From: a virus
Virus record (IMG/VR): IMGVR_UViG_3300022188_000026
Span: 1 to 37,795 of that record
Strand: one strand, 5' to 3'
DNA length: 37,795 bases
Shown here in pieces: positions 2,072 to 37,795 of the stretch. The stretch's first letter is position 1. Each line of letters starts with the position of its first letter. The translations under genes were made by a program, and so were the position numbers. The notes below the pieces were generated by a model. It searched no databases, was not told the DNA's origin, and worked only from the letters and a program-made list of their open reading frames with translations.

Positions 2072-5000
2072 TATTACAGGTTATAAAGTTATAGAGCCTG
2101 ATGAGATAATGACTCCAATTCCATACTCAGAACCTGATGATGGTGGGTACAAAGTTGTCTCACAAGATGAAGCACTTCAAGCTGCAAGAGCCAAACTTGG
2201 TGAGTATTTTGATGCAGTTGAAAAGTCAAAAGCTCCTAAAGAAGTAAAAGATCGATATATAAATGAGTTAAAGGCTCTTGATACTAAACTGGTCAGTGAG
2301 TATGATTCTGAAGGGCTAGAAGCACCTAAAGTAGGAATTTTTGAAACTGTTGCTTTTGCTGGAGCCGAAGCTTATCTTGCAGCTAAGCCTATTACAGCGG
2401 CTATAAAGCTTGGGCTTGAAGGAGCTTCTAAATCTTTGGCAGCTAAGACTGCAGCAAAGGCTTTTTTCAAAACTATAGGCCTTGTTGCTGCTACAGATGA
2501 AATCACTGAAGGTACTATTGAAGCAGTAGACTCTAAGATGAATAAAGATGTGCCTTGGTATGTAAAAGCCCCAATTGACCTCGGAGTTGGCTTAGTAACT
2601 GGTGTTGGCTCATGGGCTACCTTAGACAAAGCAGGTTTGACTCTTACAAAGGCAGCACAAAAATCACTGGCCAGTAAGTTATCAGTACCAGAGAAAGCTG
2701 TAGAAGATACTTTTGCAACTATTGATAAACAAGTTAAAACAGAGGCTGCTTTAAGTAGTACTTTGATTAACTTTGAAAGAGATAAAGTATTAAAAGATAC
2801 TGTAGCTGAATTACAAGATTTAAGAGCTACATTAGGCCCTGTAAGCAAGAGTAAAGAAAAAGTAGCTATAACTATTGATGACAGTAAAAAGGCTGTTAAA
2901 GAGGCCACAGAGACTCTTAAGGATATTAAAAGCACTTTAGAAAGCCCTTTAGAAACTAAGCGTTCAACAACACTCGATCTTGATCTTGAAAATCCTATTG
3001 ATGAGCCAGGTAAAAGTTTTGCAGGTTTTGAGGAAGTAAAAAAAGCTGGGAAAAACTATTTTTCTAAAGACCTCTTAAAATCTGCAAAAAATACTGAAGA
3101 TCTGCTTCGGGAACCTGAAGCTATGAATCAAACGATAAAAGCTCTTAAAGCTAAAAAGTTTGAAGGCATTCAAGACTTTGATACTGGGCTTAGATTTACT
3201 GGTGAGAGTCGAGAAGAAGTAATAACTGGGTACCAAAGGAATCGAGCCAAATATAACTTTTCTGAACTTACTCAACCTGCTACAACCACACCTGCTCCTG
3301 GGAAATATGCTGGCCTATCAGCAATTAAGCAAGGGGCTAAAGATATTTTCCCAGAGTCATTCCAAGCAGCAGAAAGTATAGATGAGTTTTTTCTAAGCAA
3401 AAAGCATGCAGAGAAGCTCATTGAAAAATTAAAGGACCAAGATTATATTGGTATAATTAAAGGGGCTAGGGGTTATGATTTTACTTCTGGCCAGTTGACA
3501 ATAAGTGACTTAGAGCTTCTTAAATTAGCTGAACAGTGCTCAGGTGATAATGCTGTATTGCCTACTTCAAAAGGCTTATTACATGGTATTATATGGGATA
3601 AGGTTAAACAGAAAATAACTGGCTTTAATCCTTTTAAAGCACTAATGTCTTTTTGGCCTAGTAAGTATGATGATATGGTGTACAGTTTTATTTCTGGGCC
3701 TAAGGGTAGGAAAATAACAGAAGATGAATTACAGACAATTGCTAAGCTTGAGGCTTTAGGTAATACCCCAGAAGAGATTGCTTTAAAAACTGGTTGGGTA
3801 AGACTTTCAAATGGAAGCCTTGCTGCTTTTAAACCTGAAGCAGAGTTAGCCTTAAAAGCCAACTGGCGTGAGCATCTTGAAGACCCAAATAAAACAACAC
3901 ATATTACTGATATAGTTGATTACCCAGATTTTGAAAAGTACTATGGTAAGACAGTAGGTAAACTGGTAAAAATTGTGCCAGCTGATGAGTATACTTTTAG
4001 TAATGGTTTTTATAATCCAATTACTAAAACTATAACTTTAAATGCTAGGCAATTAAAGGACAATAGAAAAGCTGTTCTTGAAGTTCTTAATCATGAAACT
4101 ACCCATGCTATTGCCCATTATGAAGGTCTCCCTCAAGGTGGAAGTTCAACAGCTTTTGGTGAAATATATGACTTATATGAAAAAGCAAAAGCTAAGTCTT
4201 CAAGTGAACGAACTATAGAAGATGTAATGCTTACAAAACTTGTAGATGCTGTTATTGCTAAATTCACCCCAGAAGAACAAATCAAATTTGCTACAGAAAG
4301 CAAAATGTGGAAAACTGTAACCTTTGGAAAACTAGCTTATAAACATATACTAGGTGAACAACTGGCCAGAAGCTCATCTTATAGAAAAGGTTTTGAAAAG
4401 GAAGTTATTCAAAAATTAGCAGATCCACAGTTTTTTGATGCTGAACCTATTTATAAATACTGCTTTGGAAAACGAGCCCTTTGGCTTCAAGCTTTTGAAA
4501 AGGGAGTTGATACCTTAGCTTCAAAAAAAGTTAAGTCTAACTTTTTCACAAAGTGGGAAGACCTTATGAATACCCAGGTTATTCAACCTCTTACTCACTG
4601 GGCAGACCTCAAAATAACTAACCAGACAGCTCGAACTCTGCTAGGCATTGATATGCCAAAAGAGTTTAGGGCTTTGAGCGACAAGTATATGAGGGAGTCT
4701 AATATACTGCTCAAAGATATAAATAATCTAGCTGTTGAGATTTACAAACGAGCACCAACAGAAGCGGAACAGGCCAAAGTTGTTGAGTTACTCCATGGCA
4801 AAACAACAACTAAAGATCCCATACTGGCCAGTAAGGTACAAGAAGTTCATAATCTCTGGGAAAAGATGCATGCTAAAAATATTGAACTTGGTATAAAGTC
4901 TAAAACTCTTTATGATAAGCTTACTGAGTCAGATATGAAGCACCTTAAGAAGCTTATTGATACTTCTACTGACCCAGAGGTAGTAGACAAAGCAAGACAA

Positions 5001-22897: not shown

Positions 22898-23039
22898 TTT
22901 GAACTGGAGAATGAAAAAACTTAATACCTAATAATGTTCAAACTGGAGAATGAAAATGTTTTAGTGCCTAGTAATGTTTGGAACAAGGGAATGAAAATGT
23001 TTTAGTGCCTAGTAATGTTCAAACTGGAGAATGAAAATG
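22898..23039 (+). repeat. ~40-bp direct repeat array, 4 units
   Basis: Units at 22898-22936, 22937-22976, 22977-23017 and 23018-23039 (partial) share AACTGGAGAATGAAAATG followed by TTTAGTGCCTAGTAATG. Unit lengths of 39-41 bp do not keep a reading frame. There are no spacers, so this is not CRISPR. ACTTCACTGGTCAGT lies just before and ACTTCACTGGCCAGT just after. Confidence 0.85.
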
Positions 23040-23069
23040 CCAAACTTCACTGGCCAGTGGGCTATAGAG

Positions 23070-23147: not shown

Positions 23148-23383
23148 AGATATACTATGAAGGTTATTTAGTAAATATGATTCAGATATAATATGAAGGG
23201 TATTCAATAAATATGATTCAGATATAACATGAATGATATTCAGTAAATATGATTCAGATATAATATGAAGGGTATTCAATAAATATGATTCAGATATAAT
23301 ATGAAGGGTATTCAGTAAATATGATTCAGATATAATATGAAAGGTATTTAGTAAATATGACTTAAAGTATGAATATGATTCAG
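23148..23383 (+). repeat. 36-bp iterons, 5 full copies plus partial ones
   Basis: Full units at 23179, 23215, 23251, 23287 and 23323, each exactly 36 bp (GATTCAGATATAATATGAAG plus 16 more), with a partial copy before and degenerate copies after. Each holds a near-symmetric TTCAnATATnATnTGAA core. They stop about 30 bp before the promoter of the 23513 regulator, so they may be operators or replication iterons. Confidence 0.9.
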
Positions 23384-23512: not shown

Positions 23513-23863
23513 ATGGATTACAGTAAAATGACTAAGGAGCAAATTAGGGCAGAACTTGATCGTTTAATGAAGGAGAATGAAAGTTTAAAAAGTAAAGGAT
23601 CAAGAAAGAAAGAGGTTTTGAGCCTACTAAGAAAAGGAATGAATAACATTGAAGAGATTGCAGGTAAAGTCGGTATTAAAGAAAAGAATGTAAGTAGTAT
23701 CCTTTCTTATTTGAGGAAAGATTTAAGCAGTAAAGGTGAAGGCATACTAAGTGTCAAATACGACAATAAGAATTTTGTGGTATTAATGAAGTTGAGTGAA
23801 ATTAATGAATTACTTTCATTGGATAATTTCGGTAAATTAAATGAAATGGAGTTGAGTAAATAA
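23513..23863 (+). CDS. Winged-helix-type transcription regulator with N-terminal coil
   Basis: Encodes 116 aa. Residues ~1-28 form a short coiled coil (EQIRAELDRLMKENESL), then a winged helix: helix (RKKEVLSLLRKG), helix (IEEIAGKVG), recognition helix (EKNVSSILSYLRKDL) and a strand pair (ILSVKYDNKNFVVLMK). It stands alone between its own consensus promoter and a textbook terminator, next to the 36-bp iterons. This arrangement suggests an early, self-regulated switch protein or an origin-binding factor. AAGGAG precedes the ATG. No exact family is recognised. Confidence 0.8.
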   Translation: MDYSKMTKEQIRAELDRLMKENESLKSKGSRKKEVLSLLRKGMNNIEEIAGKVGIKEKNVSSILSYLRKDLSSKGEGILSVKYDNKNFVVLMKLSEINELLSLDNFGKLNEMELSK

Positions 23864-23880
23864 ATCGTATTCATTGAGTG

Positions 23881-23916
23881 AGTAGGCAAGATTAAATAAA
23901 TCTTGCCTACTTTTTT
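23881..23916 (+). terminator. Strong intrinsic terminator
   Basis: A perfect 13-bp stem (23881-23893 with 23899-23911), 5-nt loop, followed by a T6 run; ends the regulator transcript. Confidence 0.92.
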
Positions 23917-23958
23917 ATTGTTTATTTATATCGTAAATAGAGATAATTGAGCGAACAG

Positions 23959-24015
23959 GATTTATTTCGTAGAATGAGATTTATTTCGTAGAATGGGATT
24001 TATTTCGTAGGGTGA
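23959..24015 (+). repeat. 19-bp direct repeat, 3 units
   Basis: Three contiguous units (23959, 23978, 23997) of GATTTATTTCGTAGAATGA with small changes, followed by a decayed copy. They lie in the non-coding stretch before the terminase operon. Confidence 0.9.
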
Positions 24016-24041
24016 GGTTTATTGAGTGAATGAGATTCAGA

Positions 24042-24125
24042 GAATAAATGAAATTTATTTTTCGACAAATAGAAAAGGGATTATAAACAGGGCGGGGGGT
24101 GTCGAAAAATAAATTTCATTTATTC
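24042..24125. repeat. Perfect 26-bp inverted repeat with G-rich spacer
   Basis: Arms at 24042-24067 and 24100-24125 are exact complements over 26 bp and surround a 32-bp spacer ending in GGGCGGGGGG, very unlike the AT-rich surroundings. Situated 116 bp before the terminase small-subunit gene, it could be a packaging (pac/cos) site, a long hairpin insulating the terminase promoter, or a genome-end/replication structure. The 377 bp between 23864 and 24240 otherwise hold only the terminator, the 19-bp repeats and the promoter. Confidence 0.9.
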
Positions 24126-24205
24126 AGTTCACCCCTTAAATATTTCCCAGATTTTCCAGTTCCTGCACACTTTTTGTGAGCTATAGTATATACTTAATTT
24201 TTTAC

Positions 24206-24234
24206 TTTACAAAGCTTAGTGTTTAAGCTATAAT
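24206..24234 (+). promoter_or_regulatory. Late operon promoter, predicted leaderless start
   Basis: TTTACA (24206-24211), a 17-bp spacer and TATAAT (24229-24234). The terminase small-subunit ATG is at 24241, where transcription would begin, and no ribosome site precedes it. An inverted repeat, AGCTTA (24213-24218) and TAAGCT (24224-24229), fills the spacer and could be an operator. Confidence 0.8.
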
Positions 24235-24240
24235 ATAATT

Positions 24241-24834
24241 ATGAAAGATTTTTTACTTAAATACAATGAAAGTCAGGATGAAGATATTTTCCAAGAAAAA
24301 TTTATTGGGGATCCTAATCTGCTGCCTCCGCCTGATCGTCAAGAGCTTGAATACCGCTATCAAGTTCTTGACGAAACAATTCCACAGCTAGCTGAACGCT
24401 TTCGTCTCACTGTTCATGCTCTACAGCTTTATATTGATGATAATAAGCTTAAACCCAGAAAGCTAACAACAGATGAAGAGTTTACAGAGCTTGAGGAATT
24501 CCTGAAACAGGAACTTGACAAACAGAGGGTGAAAGTGGCTGGTTTAGCCATTTATCAGTCAATTAAAGCCTGGTATACTTTGCTACAGAATGAGAATACT
24601 TTACTGGCCAGTGCTAAACGCAGTATTGAAGCTTTGTCCCAAGAGCTGATTCCAGATACTAAAACTCTTTCACAACTGGCCAGTGTTCAAGACAAGTTAT
24701 TCAGTAAACAACAAGGCTTACTCAATATCTTAAATATTTTTGATAAGGAATCGAGCTCTAATTTATCTGACATTATTGCTAGTGCTTTACAGAGAATAGA
24801 TGGTGATGGCTACAACTTACCAAATTCAAAATAG
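24241..24834 (+). CDS. Terminase small subunit (probable)
   Basis: Encodes 197 aa just upstream of and overlapping the large-subunit gene. ELEYRYQVLDETIPQLAERFRLTVHALQLYIDD (about 35-70) reads as a helix-turn-helix of the kind small terminases use to bind pac/cos DNA; a long helical, oligomerisation-like part follows. There is no ribosome site, and the ATG coincides with the predicted transcription start, implying leaderless translation. Two ACTGGCCAGT sites lie inside the gene, 72 bp apart. The call rests on HTH plus position. Confidence 0.75.
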   Translation: MKDFLLKYNESQDEDIFQEKFIGDPNLLPPPDRQELEYRYQVLDETIPQLAERFRLTVHALQLYIDDNKLKPRKLTTDEEFTELEEFLKQELDKQRVKVAGLAIYQSIKAWYTLLQNENTLLASAKRSIEALSQELIPDTKTLSQLASVQDKLFSKQQGLLNILNIFDKESSSNLSDIIASALQRIDGDGYNLPNSK

Positions 24835-26335
24835 AGAGTGGAGGTTAAACAACCTTTACTATATTATAGATAAGTTTGGGAAGAAGGTCATATTTAAAAT
24901 GAACTGGGCTCAAAGGATATTATATAATAACCTTTGGTATCTTTGTGATATTTTGAAAGCAAGGCAGTTAGGGATTACAACTTTCTTTTGTATCTATTTC
25001 CTGGATGCAGCTCTTTTTAACTCTTATACATCGTGTGGCATTATTGCTCATAACAGAGATGATGCTGAAAAGTTCTTTGATAAGAAAGTACGTTTTGCAT
25101 ATGACAATTTACCTATCGAGATAAAAAATACTCTTAAAGCTACTTCTGATACTGCTAAACAGCTTAAGTTTTCAAATGGCTCTATTATTAATGTAGGAAC
25201 CTCTTTACGTTCTGATACACTTCAGTTCTTACATATCTCAGAATATGGTAAAACATGTGCGAAATTTCCTGAGAAAGCTAAGGAAATAAGGACTGGGGCA
25301 ATAAATACAGTCCAAGCTGGGAATTTTCTGACTATCGAGAGCACTGCAGAGGGCCCATATGGAGACTTCTTTAACATAACAAAAGCAGCCCAAGCTAAAG
25401 CCTTAGCTGGTGCTAAGTTGTCCAAGTTAGACTTTAGGTTTTTCTTTTTTCCCTGGCAGAAGCACCCTGAATACAAACTCCCAATACCTACTGGCCAGTC
25501 GTTAAAAGATTTACCTGAGCAGCTTAAAGACTATTTTGATAAACTGGAAAAGATAGATAAGATATCTTTAGCTTCTGAACAGAAATGGTGGTATTTTAAA
25601 AAATGGGAGATTCAGCAGGATGAAATGACTAGAGAATACCCAACAACACCTGAAGAAGCATTTGCAATACCTCTGCGAGGTGCTTTCTATGAGATGCAAA
25701 TTCGTAGGCTCATCAGTGAGAGACGCCTTACAAAGGTTCCTTATGACGAAAGCATTCCGGTTCATACTGTTTGGGACCTTGGTATTTTTGACCAGATGGC
25801 TATCTGGTTTGTTCAAATTGTAGGAAGTGCCATACACTTTATTGACTTCTATTCTAATACAGACAAAGGGTTTCTGCATTACAAGAAAATGCTTGATAAG
25901 AAAGGCTATTTATATGGCCAGCATATAGGGCCATCTGACTTAAATATGAGACAGCATACGGATAAAGAGGTACCTGAGACCCGTACAGAAGTAGCAGCTA
26001 GAGTGGGAATTAACTTTTCTGAGCTACCACAAGAGCAGGATGTTTTAAATGGTATCAACCGAACTCGAGCAATGTTTAACCGGTTTTGGTTTGATGCTGA
26101 AAACTGTTGCCGTGGTGAAAAGTCTGGATTTTCTGGTATACAATTGTATTCTAAACAGTGGAACGAAAAGATGTCCTGTTACGATGACAAGCCAATAAAG
26201 AACTGGACTAGGAACCCTGCTGATGCCCTACGATATGTCTCACTTGCTGTTCAAGAGGGCTTCTTTGATAATAACTGGTATGATGAGTATGATCGTTCAC
26301 GATGGCTATATAAAAGGGATAAAGCAAGAGTATGA
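24800..26335 (+). CDS. terL: Terminase large subunit
   Basis: Encodes 511 aa. The ATPase P-loop-like KARQLGITT (~53-61) follows an adenine-site WAQRILYNNL; LHISEYGK fits Walker B with its catalytic Glu. The nuclease domain begins with HTVWDLGIFDQMAIW (metal-binding Asp) and continues to the C-terminal NPADALRYV. It pumps DNA into the prohead and cuts it. It overlaps the small-subunit gene by 35 bp and the portal start by 4 bp. The start may be either of two near ATGs (24800 or 24806). Confidence 0.9.
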   Translation: MVMATTYQIQNREWRLNNLYYIIDKFGKKVIFKMNWAQRILYNNLWYLCDILKARQLGITTFFCIYFLDAALFNSYTSCGIIAHNRDDAEKFFDKKVRFAYDNLPIEIKNTLKATSDTAKQLKFSNGSIINVGTSLRSDTLQFLHISEYGKTCAKFPEKAKEIRTGAINTVQAGNFLTIESTAEGPYGDFFNITKAAQAKALAGAKLSKLDFRFFFFPWQKHPEYKLPIPTGQSLKDLPEQLKDYFDKLEKIDKISLASEQKWWYFKKWEIQQDEMTREYPTTPEEAFAIPLRGAFYEMQIRRLISERRLTKVPYDESIPVHTVWDLGIFDQMAIWFVQIVGSAIHFIDFYSNTDKGFLHYKKMLDKKGYLYGQHIGPSDLNMRQHTDKEVPETRTEVAARVGINFSELPQEQDVLNGINRTRAMFNRFWFDAENCCRGEKSGFSGIQLYSKQWNEKMSCYDDKPIKNWTRNPADALRYVSLAVQEGFFDNNWYDEYDRSRWLYKRDKARV

Positions 26336-28703: not shown

Positions 28704-29535
28704 TGCTTATGGGCTTTCTGATGAGGACTTTCAGAATTTACTGAATAACCCTGAACAGGAAGAACAGGAAGAACAGGAAGAACAGGAAGAACAGGAAGAA
28801 CAGGAAGAACAGGAAGAACAGGAAGAACAGGAAGAACAGGAAGAACAGGAAGAACAGGAAGAACAGGAAGAACAGAAACAGGAAGAACCTGAAGTCTTTC
28901 AGATAGTTCACAATGGCCAAGTTCATACTGTGCCCAAACAGCAACTTATAAATCTTGCTCAACAGGGCTTTGATTACAATGCTAAAATGAATGAGCTGGC
29001 ACCTAAACGAAAACTTGTTAAACTGGTGCAATCTGATCCTGATCTTCAGAAAATGATAAATGAGCATGTTGTCAAAAAAGCTATTCCTGAAGTCTCAGAC
29101 AGAGAAGACTATGAGACAGAACAAGACTGGCTTAAAGATAACTTAACGAAAACAATTTCAACAGTTAATCCTGTTATAGATCTGGAAGAAGGTGAGAAAC
29201 AGCCTGAAGTTAATCCTCTGGCCAGTACTGAGCCTCCTATAGTTACAAAACTAAGAGCTCTTGATCCTGAAGGATTTGAAGCCACAGTGCCAAAGATGAC
29301 TCAGGCAATAAAAAATTTAACAGTTAAACAATACCAAGAGATTACCAATGATGAGCAAAAGGTAATTCAATTGTATCAACAAGTGCGTAATTCAACTTTT
29401 AAACCTAAACCTCGAACTCAGCATTTTAATATAAGGGGTGGCCGAAGTCAGAAGGCCAATCCTCTAAAGAAGAATGTTTGGGATCTTGGTAATAAAGACT
29501 TTAATAAGATTCTTAAGAAAGTCAAAGGATATTAA
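28693..29535 (+). CDS. Scaffolding protein (probable) with QEE repeat
   Basis: Encodes 280 aa directly upstream of the capsid gene. After a short acidic start come 13 perfect QEE triplets (plus imperfect ones), then a moderately conserved FQIVHNGQVHTVPKQQLINLAQQGFDYNAKM typical of phage scaffold-like proteins, a helical middle and a basic C-terminus (RTQHFNIRGGRSQK) suited to capsid binding. AAAGGAGG precedes the start. The role comes from position, charge pattern and basic tail. Confidence 0.78.
   Translation: MPDDAYGLSDEDFQNLLNNPEQEEQEEQEEQEEQEEQEEQEEQEEQEEQEEQEEQEEQEEQKQEEPEVFQIVHNGQVHTVPKQQLINLAQQGFDYNAKMNELAPKRKLVKLVQSDPDLQKMINEHVVKKAIPEVSDREDYETEQDWLKDNLTKTISTVNPVIDLEEGEKQPEVNPLASTEPPIVTKLRALDPEGFEATVPKMTQAIKNLTVKQYQEITNDEQKVIQLYQQVRNSTFKPKPRTQHFNIRGGRSQKANPLKKNVWDLGNKDFNKILKKVKGY
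28756..28872 (+). repeat. 9-bp tandem repeat, 13 perfect units (QEE)
   Basis: CAGGAAGAA is repeated 13 times without change. Its complementary frame produces only a Phe-rich shadow frame. Such perfect identity suggests recent expansion or slippage; copy number may vary between isolates. Confidence 0.95.
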
Positions 29536-33503: not shown

Positions 33504-36076
33504 TGGCTAAAGAAAATTATGACGCAACAGGTCTTACTATAAAAGACGCAATACAAGTATTGTTAGACAATGATCTTACTGAGCTTTTTAATACTATGGA
33601 TGAAGTGATTGCAGCGAGATGTGGTGAGGCTACATTACAAGATAAAGAGTTAATTCAGGATACTGCAGCTCAAACAGTTATAGATGAAGTTGAGGCAGCA
33701 AGAGGTGGTGAGGTTTCATTACAGGCTAAAGAGCTAGCACAGGATACAGCAACCCAAACAATTGTAGAGGAGGTTGAAACAGCAAGAGACGGAGAGCCAA
33801 CTTTACTTGAAAAGGAGCAGGCTCAGGATACTGCAATTCAAATAGTTGCGGAAGAGGTTGGAACAGCAAGAGATGGGAAGTCAACTTTACTAGAGAAAGA
33901 GCAAGCTCAAGATACTGCAACTCAAATAGTTGTAAATGAAGTAGAAGAAGCTAGAGATGGGAGGGTTTCATTACTAGAAAAGGAACAGGCTCAGGATAAT
34001 GAAGTAGTGGCTTTAAAATCACAAGTTTCTATTGGTGAAAAAAATAATTATTATTTTCCAGATCCTCTTGAAGCAGACCAGGGAGTTAATGGTAATGGTT
34101 TTACTATTAAAGATTGTATTGATGCAGTAGGCAGTAAAAGAGCAACGATTTTTCTAAAGCATAATTCTATAGCAGATACAACTGTTTATACTGTATCAAC
34201 AGATTTAACTATCCCAGAAAATATATGTTTTATGATTGAAAATGGGGCTATTGTATCTGTTGATGATGGAAAAGTTTTAACTATTAATGGGGCTTTTGAA
34301 GCTGGACTTTATCAGGTGTTTAGTGAGGAGGGGAATGTAAATTTAGAAAAAGCTCAAATTAATTATATTATAGCAGAATGGTATGGGACAGGGACTACAG
34401 ATGATAGTATTGTACTTAAAAAGGTAATCGAAAATAGTATTCTTTATAATATACCCTGTAAGTTGACACGACAATCTTATACAATATTATCCCCAGTTAT
34501 TATATCTCATACAAATACCAATGTAAACGCACCAATAATCATAGGCAAAGGGAATGGCGGTCCAGGGGCTGCAACTGGACAAACAACAATATATTTTTCA
34601 TCTGCTGTTAATGGCATAGCGGCTATATCATTCAGTAGTACAGATAATTCTATGAGAGGCCTAAAATTCAAAAATATATCTATTAGAAAAACTGGAACTG
34701 GAACTGGAACTGGTCAAACCGGCCTTCTTTTAGACCAAATGCACTCTTTTAATTTAACTAATGTAAAAGTAGGTGGATTTTATGATGTTGATGACACTGG
34801 AATAGAAATTTCAAATTGTTGGGAAGGGTCTCTTAATTATTGTTATGCTCCTTTTAACAGAACAGGATTAAAATTTACGCCTGTTTCCACGGTAATTAAT
34901 ATAGTTGGAGGAAGTTTTAAAGCTTGTGATGTTGGCATTCTTTTTACAGGAGGACTTAGTGTAAATATATCTATCCAAGAAATTAACTTAGAATCATGTA
35001 CTACTACAGGAATAAAGGTAGATTCACAATTAACACTTTTGAGCTTACAAAATGTTCATCTTGAAGATTCAAAACTTCCATTAGACTTAAAGGGAGTGAA
35101 TCAGGCCACATTACATGGTTTTTTTAGTTTGAATTCTGAAGCCTTAAATACTGATCCTATTTGTAAAATTGAAGATTGTAAAGGAATTGAACTTAGTGGT
35201 TATGTTTATTCAGCTAATAGTTATATTTATCAGGTTATTGGTAATAATAATTCTAATTTTAGCATAGGTGATATTGGAGATAATCTCCAATATATGAAAT
35301 TACAAATATCTCCTGGTAACCCTTGGAAAAATTCAGAACAGTTAATCGGGTATAAAGGGAATCTGACTGTTAATGCAGACCCTTTTATGATGATGCCGCA
35401 ACTTGGTGAAAGTTACAGAACTCCCACAACGTATCCTATTGGTGTTCGTTCTTTCAATAATCCTGGGATGACAAGAGAATGGACAACAGTAGATGCTTAT
35501 GTTACAGATAAGTATGTATGGCATATAACAACTAATGCTAATGGGTTTTATTTTGCTGGGTATGAAATTCCTGTAGTACCAGGACAACTTTTTAAAGTTT
35601 GCACAATAGCTAAAGGTTCATCAGGTAGTACTTTTCGAGTCCAAACATCCACAGGGAATTTACTTGCTCAGCTTAGCCTTGATAGTACTTGGTCTGAAAA
35701 AACATTGGTATTTACTGTACCAGATGAAATCACATTTATCCGAGTTGGGTGGGCGGTAACAGATTCTGGGGATAATAAAGATATCTGGGTGCATTCAATG
35801 CATATACAATATGGTATAGACTATAAACCTGCTATCCCAAATCCTTTAGATGTTATTCGTAAATATTCCAGAAAATTAACTAATGTTGGGACTACAGGTG
35901 TTACAATAAATCTGCCAATAAATAACAGTAATTATCTTATAGCAGCTACACCAGAAAGGGCAACTAATTGTTGGGTAGAGCGAAATGATACAATAATTGT
36001 AGTAAAAACAGATGATACTGGAGACAGTGATGTTGTAAATGTAATTATTCTTCCTTTATCAGAAATATCTTATTAA
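33503..36076 (+). CDS. Tailspike/tail fibre with coiled-coil stalk and beta-helix
   Basis: Encodes 857 aa. Residues ~43-170 hold five 28-residue repeats (ARDGE-x-x-LLEKEQAQDTATQ), 28 being four heptads, so a trimeric coiled-coil stalk is likely. Then a tailspike-type domain (ATIFLKHNSIADTTVYTVSTD onward, AEWYGTGTTDDSIVL) and a parallel beta-helix (repeating LxxVxLxx turns to ~580), then a beta-sandwich that may bind sugar. It should recognise and perhaps cut a host surface glycan. The gene lacks CTGGCCAG altogether, suggesting a separate origin. No catalytic residues can be named. Confidence 0.85.
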   Translation: MAKENYDATGLTIKDAIQVLLDNDLTELFNTMDEVIAARCGEATLQDKELIQDTAAQTVIDEVEAARGGEVSLQAKELAQDTATQTIVEEVETARDGEPTLLEKEQAQDTAIQIVAEEVGTARDGKSTLLEKEQAQDTATQIVVNEVEEARDGRVSLLEKEQAQDNEVVALKSQVSIGEKNNYYFPDPLEADQGVNGNGFTIKDCIDAVGSKRATIFLKHNSIADTTVYTVSTDLTIPENICFMIENGAIVSVDDGKVLTINGAFEAGLYQVFSEEGNVNLEKAQINYIIAEWYGTGTTDDSIVLKKVIENSILYNIPCKLTRQSYTILSPVIISHTNTNVNAPIIIGKGNGGPGAATGQTTIYFSSAVNGIAAISFSSTDNSMRGLKFKNISIRKTGTGTGTGQTGLLLDQMHSFNLTNVKVGGFYDVDDTGIEISNCWEGSLNYCYAPFNRTGLKFTPVSTVINIVGGSFKACDVGILFTGGLSVNISIQEINLESCTTTGIKVDSQLTLLSLQNVHLEDSKLPLDLKGVNQATLHGFFSLNSEALNTDPICKIEDCKGIELSGYVYSANSYIYQVIGNNNSNFSIGDIGDNLQYMKLQISPGNPWKNSEQLIGYKGNLTVNADPFMMMPQLGESYRTPTTYPIGVRSFNNPGMTREWTTVDAYVTDKYVWHITTNANGFYFAGYEIPVVPGQLFKVCTIAKGSSGSTFRVQTSTGNLLAQLSLDSTWSEKTLVFTVPDEITFIRVGWAVTDSGDNKDIWVHSMHIQYGIDYKPAIPNPLDVIRKYSRKLTNVGTTGVTINLPINNSNYLIAATPERATNCWVERNDTIIVVKTDDTGDSDVVNVIILPLSEISY

Positions 36077-37327: not shown

Positions 37328-37795
37328 ATGATACAAATATCAAATCAAAACTTAGCTTTAGGTAAGCCTTTAGGCATCCAAATTAAACACAGAAATAGGT
37401 ATAAATTCTGCTCCTACACCACAAACACAGCTTCACAATCAGCAGATATAAAGTTATCCCTGCCCGCCAATAAGAAAATTACTATCTTTTGGGGTGATGG
37501 TGAATCTACTGTTATCACAGGTGAAGTTACCGAAACAATATATTCTCATACCTACGCAGATGTTGGAACTTATAATCTTACAGTTTCAGGGGATTATAAT
37601 GATATTACGTATTTAAACTTTTATGGTGATGGGAGTTATGGTGGAGATATAAAGTATATGCCTGATAATTTAACTGTTTTTAATTGTAGTGGAAATAATA
37701 TAATATCAGGAGATATTCAATATTTGCCTGTTGGTTTAACTTATTTTTATGTTAGAGGAAATAATATAATATCAGGAGATATTCAATATTTGCCT
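37328..37795 (+). CDS. PKD-like plus leucine-rich-repeat protein, 3' truncated
   Basis: Open from ATG 37328 to the window edge (156 codons, no stop). After an N-terminal beta segment (~1-45) comes a PKD-like domain (KITIFWGDGESTV...YSHTYADVGTYNLTVSG, ~50-90). From ~95 on come LRR-like turns of 22 residues: GNNIISGDIQYLP appears twice, encoded by identical 39-bp DNA. The architecture suits a host-binding surface protein. The ribosome site is weak (AAGAGA). Confidence 0.75.
   Translation, partial: MIQISNQNLALGKPLGIQIKHRNRYKFCSYTTNTASQSADIKLSLPANKKITIFWGDGESTVITGEVTETIYSHTYADVGTYNLTVSGDYNDITYLNFYGDGSYGGDIKYMPDNLTVFNCSGNNIISGDIQYLPVGLTYFYVRGNNIISGDIQYLP
37691..37795 (+). repeat. 39-bp perfect direct repeat, 66-bp period
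   Basis: Positions 37691-37729 and 37757-37795 are identical, 66 bp apart, encoding successive LRR turns. The second copy ends exactly at the window edge, so the array probably continues. Confidence 0.9.

Follow-up and report, generated by a model that had tools for sequence, protein, structure and literature searches.

What is the role of a long perfect inverted repeat that stands directly in front of the terminase genes of an uncultured phage? The repeat lies in IMG/VR record IMGVR_UViG_3300022188_000026, all 37,795 nucleotides of which were analyzed and are referred to as the window. A first-pass annotation had considered a packaging start, a genome-end structure or a transcription terminator. 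Comparison with related contigs suggests that region 23959-24178, in a tailed phage with an SU10-type portal, acts in cis as the start site of packaging in the manner of pac or cos, a reading to which we assign about even odds (roughly 0.5). Judged by sequence, the hairpin itself is a local variant of an arrangement common to uncultured relatives, and a single hairpin has thereby led to an arrangement that can be tested across this clade of uncultured phages.

The hairpin and its surroundings

The arms of the 26-bp inverted repeat at 24042-24125 are 100% complementary, confirming the original observation. The stem is the longest short-range perfect stem of the window, with a runner-up of 14 bp, while the longest stems in 60 first-order Markov simulations of the whole window measured 9-15 bp. 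With about 4e-8 stems of 26 bp expected under a first-order Markov model, the hairpin lies far beyond chance. DNA folding yielded -22.5 kcal/mol, with z values of -7.4 for a wider and -11 for a tight stretch. An Rfam scan of the window gave no match at the gathering threshold. The spacer does contain the G-richest run, as had been claimed, the G6 at 24094 being the window's only run of six G or C. It is part of a G-rich core, GGGCGGGGGG at 24090-24099, that forms the 3' end of the loop, and TGT continues into the right arm.

To the left of the element lies a leftward replication module (helicase, ligase, polymerase, SSB, exonuclease and VapE-type primase), to its right a rightward late module (TerS candidate, TerL, SU10-type portal, scaffold-like protein, major capsid and adaptor). 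The element stands between the two modules, 116 bp ahead of the ORF of the TerS candidate, and this ORF, starting at 24241 directly before TerL, agrees with the small terminase that had been placed right downstream of the hairpin. An AlphaFold2 model based on a five-sequence alignment contains an HTH at residues 30-67 (pLDDT about 84-92) and, after it, a long helical hairpin, and the predicted fold is the usual TerS plan. The candidate matched no family above the cut-off in profile libraries, Foldseek and VIA returned generic helical hairpins for the model with no TerS among the matches listed, and the TerS of headful relatives matched it weakly at the profile level. The protein encoded beside the repeat array models well as a coiled coil plus winged helix (wHTH) and is possibly the array-binding protein. 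Relative to terS, its gene runs in the opposite direction in four close relatives and in the more distant L225 and L226 described below, and in the same direction in the window and in L231.

Table 1. Positions of the features at and around the element (window coordinates unless a relative is named).
Feature	Position	Strand	Basis or remark
36-bp (2 x 18) array, 5.9 copies, GATTCA..ATATGAA units	23148-23360	+	far side of wHTH gene
116-aa coiled-coil plus winged-HTH (wHTH) protein	23513-23863	+	structure model, relatives; beside array, conserved
wHTH gene in relatives	L011 1812-2141; L012 1790-2149; L014 6721-7020; L028 7966-8325 and 7312-7617		two copies in L028
Canonical intrinsic terminator, 14-bp stem and T-tract	23880-23920	+	after wHTH gene, shields element from upstream transcription
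19-bp array GATTTATTTCGTAGAATGA, 4.2 copies	23959-24037	+	diverged counterpart of relatives' 18-bp ATTCATTAAATGAATGGG array
Left arm, 26 nt	24042-24067	.	repeat detection, folding, simulation
Loop, 32 nt	24068-24099	+	3' end is the G-rich core GGGCGGGGGG
Right arm, 26 nt	24100-24125	.	repeat detection, folding, simulation
Right-hand box CCCAGATTTTCCAGTTCCTG-CACACTTTTTGTG	24146-24178	+	candidate TerS-binding site; box alignment, relatives
Promoter TTTACA-17-TATAAT (11/12)	24206-24234	+	best rightward promoter-like site; ends 6 nt before terS ATG
TerS candidate, 197 aa	24241-24834	+	position before TerL; predicted HTH 30-67 and long helical hairpin 78-185
TerL	24800-26335	+	phrog_2 E 5e-20; phrog_5989 E 4e-10
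CTGGCCAG, 36 sites	whole window, e.g. 438, 1455, 2667, 3487 ... 36748		about 1 per kb

A role of the hairpin in terminating leftover transcription had also been proposed, and this part of the annotation found no support. The stem is AT-rich, the sequence after the right arm is AGTTCACCCC with no T-run following the stem, and the GC-rich stem, short loop and T-tract of an intrinsic terminator are absent at the hairpin. A terminator scan reported none there and a strong one at 23880-23912, where a canonical terminator already stands, and the terS promoter lies downstream of the element. With this promoter downstream and the terminator upstream, the element is DNA outside the terS transcript, and the hairpin is best taken as a DNA element, outside the terS mRNA. 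The TTTACA-17-TATAAT layout of the promoter recurs in L028 and L012. In four of five phages the -10 TATAAT of terS was found 0-6 nt before the presumed ATG (window 24206-24241; L028 8975; L012 2970; L011 2775), and with so short a distance the terS mRNA should be leaderless or nearly so.

Array and core in close relatives

Searches with TerL and portal yielded five IMG/VR contigs, representing four independent close phages (L028, L011, L014 and L012, plus the near-duplicate L013), whose TerL are 60-67% identical to that of the window. In all four the site before terS comprises an array of about 18-bp palindromic units, a G-rich core and one to four boxes. The array lies left of the core and is built of 18-nt units, ATTCATTAAATGAATGGG, each a near-palindrome. 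The three 19-bp repeats noted earlier at 23959-24015 are present in the window and belong to the larger 4.2-copy array. The same non-coding region holds three further repeats of about 40 bp (AACTGGAGAATGAAAATGTTTTAGTGCCTAGTAATGTT) at 22902-23040. Other tandem repeats of the window are found in coding or probable coding DNA: a 15-bp unit in eight and an 84-bp unit in 4.8 copies (regions 306-423 and 33599-33998), 15 copies of the 9-bp GAACAGGAA in the scaffold-like gene (28753-28888) and, at the right contig end, a leucine-rich-repeat-like 66-bp tandem unit (37643-37795).

The core reads GGGCGGGGGTGT in L011 and L014 (in longer form GTGGGCGGGGGTGT and AAAGGGCGGGGGTGT, respectively), GGCTGGGGGTCAT in L028 and GGGGCTGGGGGGCAC in L012, where the core ATTCAGGGGCTGGGGGGC replaces exactly one array unit. 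A run of at least five G within 500 bp before terS is found in five of five genomes, i.e. the window and its four relatives, the product of the chance probabilities being about 2e-7. In each of them the core is on the sense strand of terS, at the right-hand end of the array or close to it, 151 bp before the terS ATG in the window and 230-430 bp before it in the relatives. One or two array units separate it from that end in the four relatives; the window has diverged on the right side. A pattern search for the core plus TTCATT gave nine matches, of which only G001 (L026) was relevant. G6 runs near some 70 TerLs of about 40-49% identity were somewhat more frequent before the terL start than after it; as several are placed where terS coding is expected and the signal is unclear, they were not counted as support.

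Perfect arms of at least 14 bp occur only in the window and in L011 among these five genomes. L011 has 14-bp perfect arms around the core, L014 and L028 have imperfect ones and L012 none of note, and the arm sequences of the window differ from those of the relatives. Of the packaging start proposed at the hairpin, the place directly upstream of terS and the G-rich core are conserved in four of four close relatives, as would suit a packaging site, whereas the arms as a perfect hairpin are not kept. By sequence comparison the conserved part is array, core and boxes, not the long perfect hairpin.

Boxes that keep with TerS

The boxes have the general form CCAATTTT...CACA-n-TTTT-GTG and are present in one to four copies before terS in the relatives. 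They align over about 35 nt as CCAATTTTC, some 11 nt and CACAnnTTTTGTG, and the window has one. Matches to CACA-n-TTT-n-TGTG in the five genomes, with overlapping matches counted once, fall between core and terS at eight of nine places.

Besides these five close genomes the set comprised three with another terminase, L225, L226 and L231. As these were found by a search with the wHTH protein family, co-occurrence of wHTH protein, TerS and boxes is partly by construction. Their TerS are homologous to that of the window (BLAST, E 1e-16 to 1e-27), their TerL is of the Terminase_3 type, and the portal of L231 is P22-type. Before terS, L226 has four boxes (CACAAATTTTGTG), L231 three with a 29-bp period, and L225 a single degenerate one. 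The array of L226 contains a GC-rich core, GTGGGCGGCGC. In L225 and L231 the ATTCATT array is absent although the wHTH gene is kept; L225 shows no clear core, and L231 has a (GGTCT)21 array (3327-3430) where relatives have array and core. L231 also has, at 1986-2616, a long stretch of low complexity with open frames on both strands (NIISADIISA... / AEIISAEII...). A further match of the wHTH search, L232, has different repeats before a TerS-like gene without detectable BLAST similarity to the present TerS.

The boxes are thus kept within a TerS family despite TerL exchange, and different repeats stand in L232, so that they appear to keep with TerS, as expected of a TerS site. The putative recognition sequence at terS goes with the TerS type across two TerL types, as one would look for in a pac site. 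The 19-bp repeats had been proposed as the TerS-binding array, an assignment that found no support: they belong to the 18-19-bp palindromic left array, and it is other elements, the boxes between core and terS, that go with the TerS family when TerL is exchanged. On sequence grounds the boxes are the better candidates for TerS sites, since they persist in three phages with the same TerS family but a different terminase. Genomes in which TerL and portal have been replaced but the boxes have stayed with TerS offer a natural experiment for assigning the parts of a packaging site to the terminase subunits that read them. How TerS binds DNA is described as elusive and controversial in a review (PMC9611059).

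A proposed packaging start and its alternatives

The reading as a packaging start builds on the anatomy of the site, its conservation and the association of TerS with the boxes, which we observe directly. TerS would bind one or more boxes of the 24146-24178 type, between core and terS, through its predicted N-terminal HTH. This would position TerL to cut first in the G-rich core (24090-24102) or close to it, with packaging proceeding rightwards into terS-terL. Another dimeric protein, for which the product of the neighbouring wHTH gene is a candidate, may bind the left 18-19-bp palindromic array and shape or regulate the complex. In this scheme the perfect hairpin would be the local result of inverted palindromic array-like DNA flanking the core and may help to extrude or present the core, but would not be required clade-wide. 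A bolder version would join a palindromic iteron array bound by its own wHTH protein, a G-rich core where the cut is made and the TerS boxes into a single nucleoprotein complex that couples replication to packaging and persists while TerL and portal are exchanged; this seems unlikely to us.

With respect to the type of packaging, the evidence leans weakly to pac over cos. Both ends of contig G001, that of L011, lie in the primase gene with about 2 nt missing between them, and the contig closes as a circle of about 40.76 kb that runs through the element. With its ends meeting in one gene, the genome was probably circular, concatemeric or permuted in the sample, which is compatible with pac or with ligated cos. 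Genome ends made at the hairpin by a protelomerase or a terminal protein are disfavoured, as G001 closes on itself within one gene. The contig ends of the L028 record and of the window are in late genes. The nearest named TerLs are about 42-44% identical and include those of Erwinia phages vB_EhrS_49/59 (TerL 42.6%), for which headful packaging is reported as noted experimentally (PMC7317114), and it is this presence of headful phages among the nearest named TerLs that favours pac. The records of Erwinia 49, Hafnia 76 and Cruim01 open at the terS start codon and are uninformative on ends.

Alternatively, the element may be a replication origin, which we regard as somewhat unlikely. The palindromic repeats would then be iterons bound by the wHTH protein in the manner of lambda O, the nearby AT-rich DNA would open, and the core would stabilize an R-loop or mark the start of the leading strand. 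Unit length and internal dyad are iteron-like, tandem 17-22-bp repeats with a dyad stand beside the gene of a putative DNA-binding protein, as expected of an iteron origin, and the wHTH plus coiled-coil protein adjoins the array. The region, with a GC content of 0.29-0.36 and a G-skew of +0.15 to +0.47 (strong, at +0.47, over 22.9-24.1 kb), separates the replication module, which runs leftward, from the rightward late module. GC skew, however, largely follows gene direction, L225 and L231 keep the wHTH gene without the ATTCATT array, initiator homology was not found and Pfam gave the wHTH protein generic matches that fall below the cut-off, and every core-bearing genome has its core beside terS together with TerS-linked boxes.

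Array and boxes could also be operators of a transcription switch, serving a divergent early-left promoter and the late terS promoter, with the hairpin or cruciform and the core incidental or insulating. The boxes are immediately upstream of the strong, near-leaderless terS promoter and could equally be its operators, the wHTH protein adjoins the array, and L014 carries array-unit-like sequences outside the main array, at 3039 and 3057. A switch nevertheless leaves the conserved G-rich core unexplained, and the box copy number (1-4) and the distance from core to ATG (151-430 bp) vary widely; we consider it decidedly unlikely. That the perfect repeat has no role of its own, being either a mutational product (quasi-palindrome correction or template switch in palindromic array DNA, in line with palindromic array units and with long perfect arms here only, those of relatives being shorter or broken) or an RNA terminator hairpin, is very unlikely. 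The core that the arms enclose and its array surroundings are conserved, so that the locus is of importance whether or not the arms are, and the AT-rich stem, 32-nt loop and missing T-tract do not suit a terminator.

A strongly over-represented palindrome

The palindrome CTGGCCAG is possibly a stronger lead, separate from the packaging region. It is the most over-represented 8-mer of the window, with 36 copies vs 0.13 expected (about 280-284-fold), and the top 8-mer in four of four close relatives, 72- to 189-fold over-represented. It is frequent in L225, L226 and L231 despite their different structural genes, and absent or rare in TerL relatives at 41-49% identity, L052 (65% GC) having five. 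In portal relatives at 36-40% (L149-L153) no element like the one before terS was recognized, and there is little or no CTGGCCAG; none of the five matches of part of the exact arm sequence among viral contigs has such a site. The sites are spaced more evenly than random (P 0.0016), use all three reading frames and are mostly not common to orthologues, i.e. they turn over. In kind the phage-borne CTGGCCAG resembles the cyanobacterial highly iterated palindrome HIP1 (PMC4390886). The extended form ACTGGCCAGT was found at such density in none of 274 sampled genomes from the class of Gayadomonas (Gammaproteobacteria).

Comparison with known systems

The lambda origin contains 18-19-bp O iterons. 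The site studied here shares with it the unit length, the internal dyad and a winged-helix protein gene alongside, but differs in standing at terS, in an array that is missing from the wHTH-bearing L225 and L231, and in the lack of detected initiator homology.

The cos region of lambda and P2 consists of cosN plus cosB, and the overhang is GGGCGGCGACCT in lambda and GGCGAGGCGGGGAAAGCAC in P2. The length of cos ranges from 4 to 19 bp (PMC5000459). A short GC-rich core next to terS, as in a cos site, is present here, together with repeats as candidate TerS sites between core and terS and the same gene order. Unlike lambda and P2 cos, the present site has a long array of 18-bp palindromic units to the left of its core, contigs run through it, and the nearest named TerLs include headful phages.

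A pac site of the SPP1 type is arranged as pacL-pacC-pacR. Multiple contacts flank the first cut in this type of site (PMC9611059). The repeat sequences differ from those found here, where the left array is larger, a G-rich core is present and the cut is putative. As in SPP1 pac, the layout is a three-part one of repeats, core and repeats near terS, and it is compatible with headful packaging.
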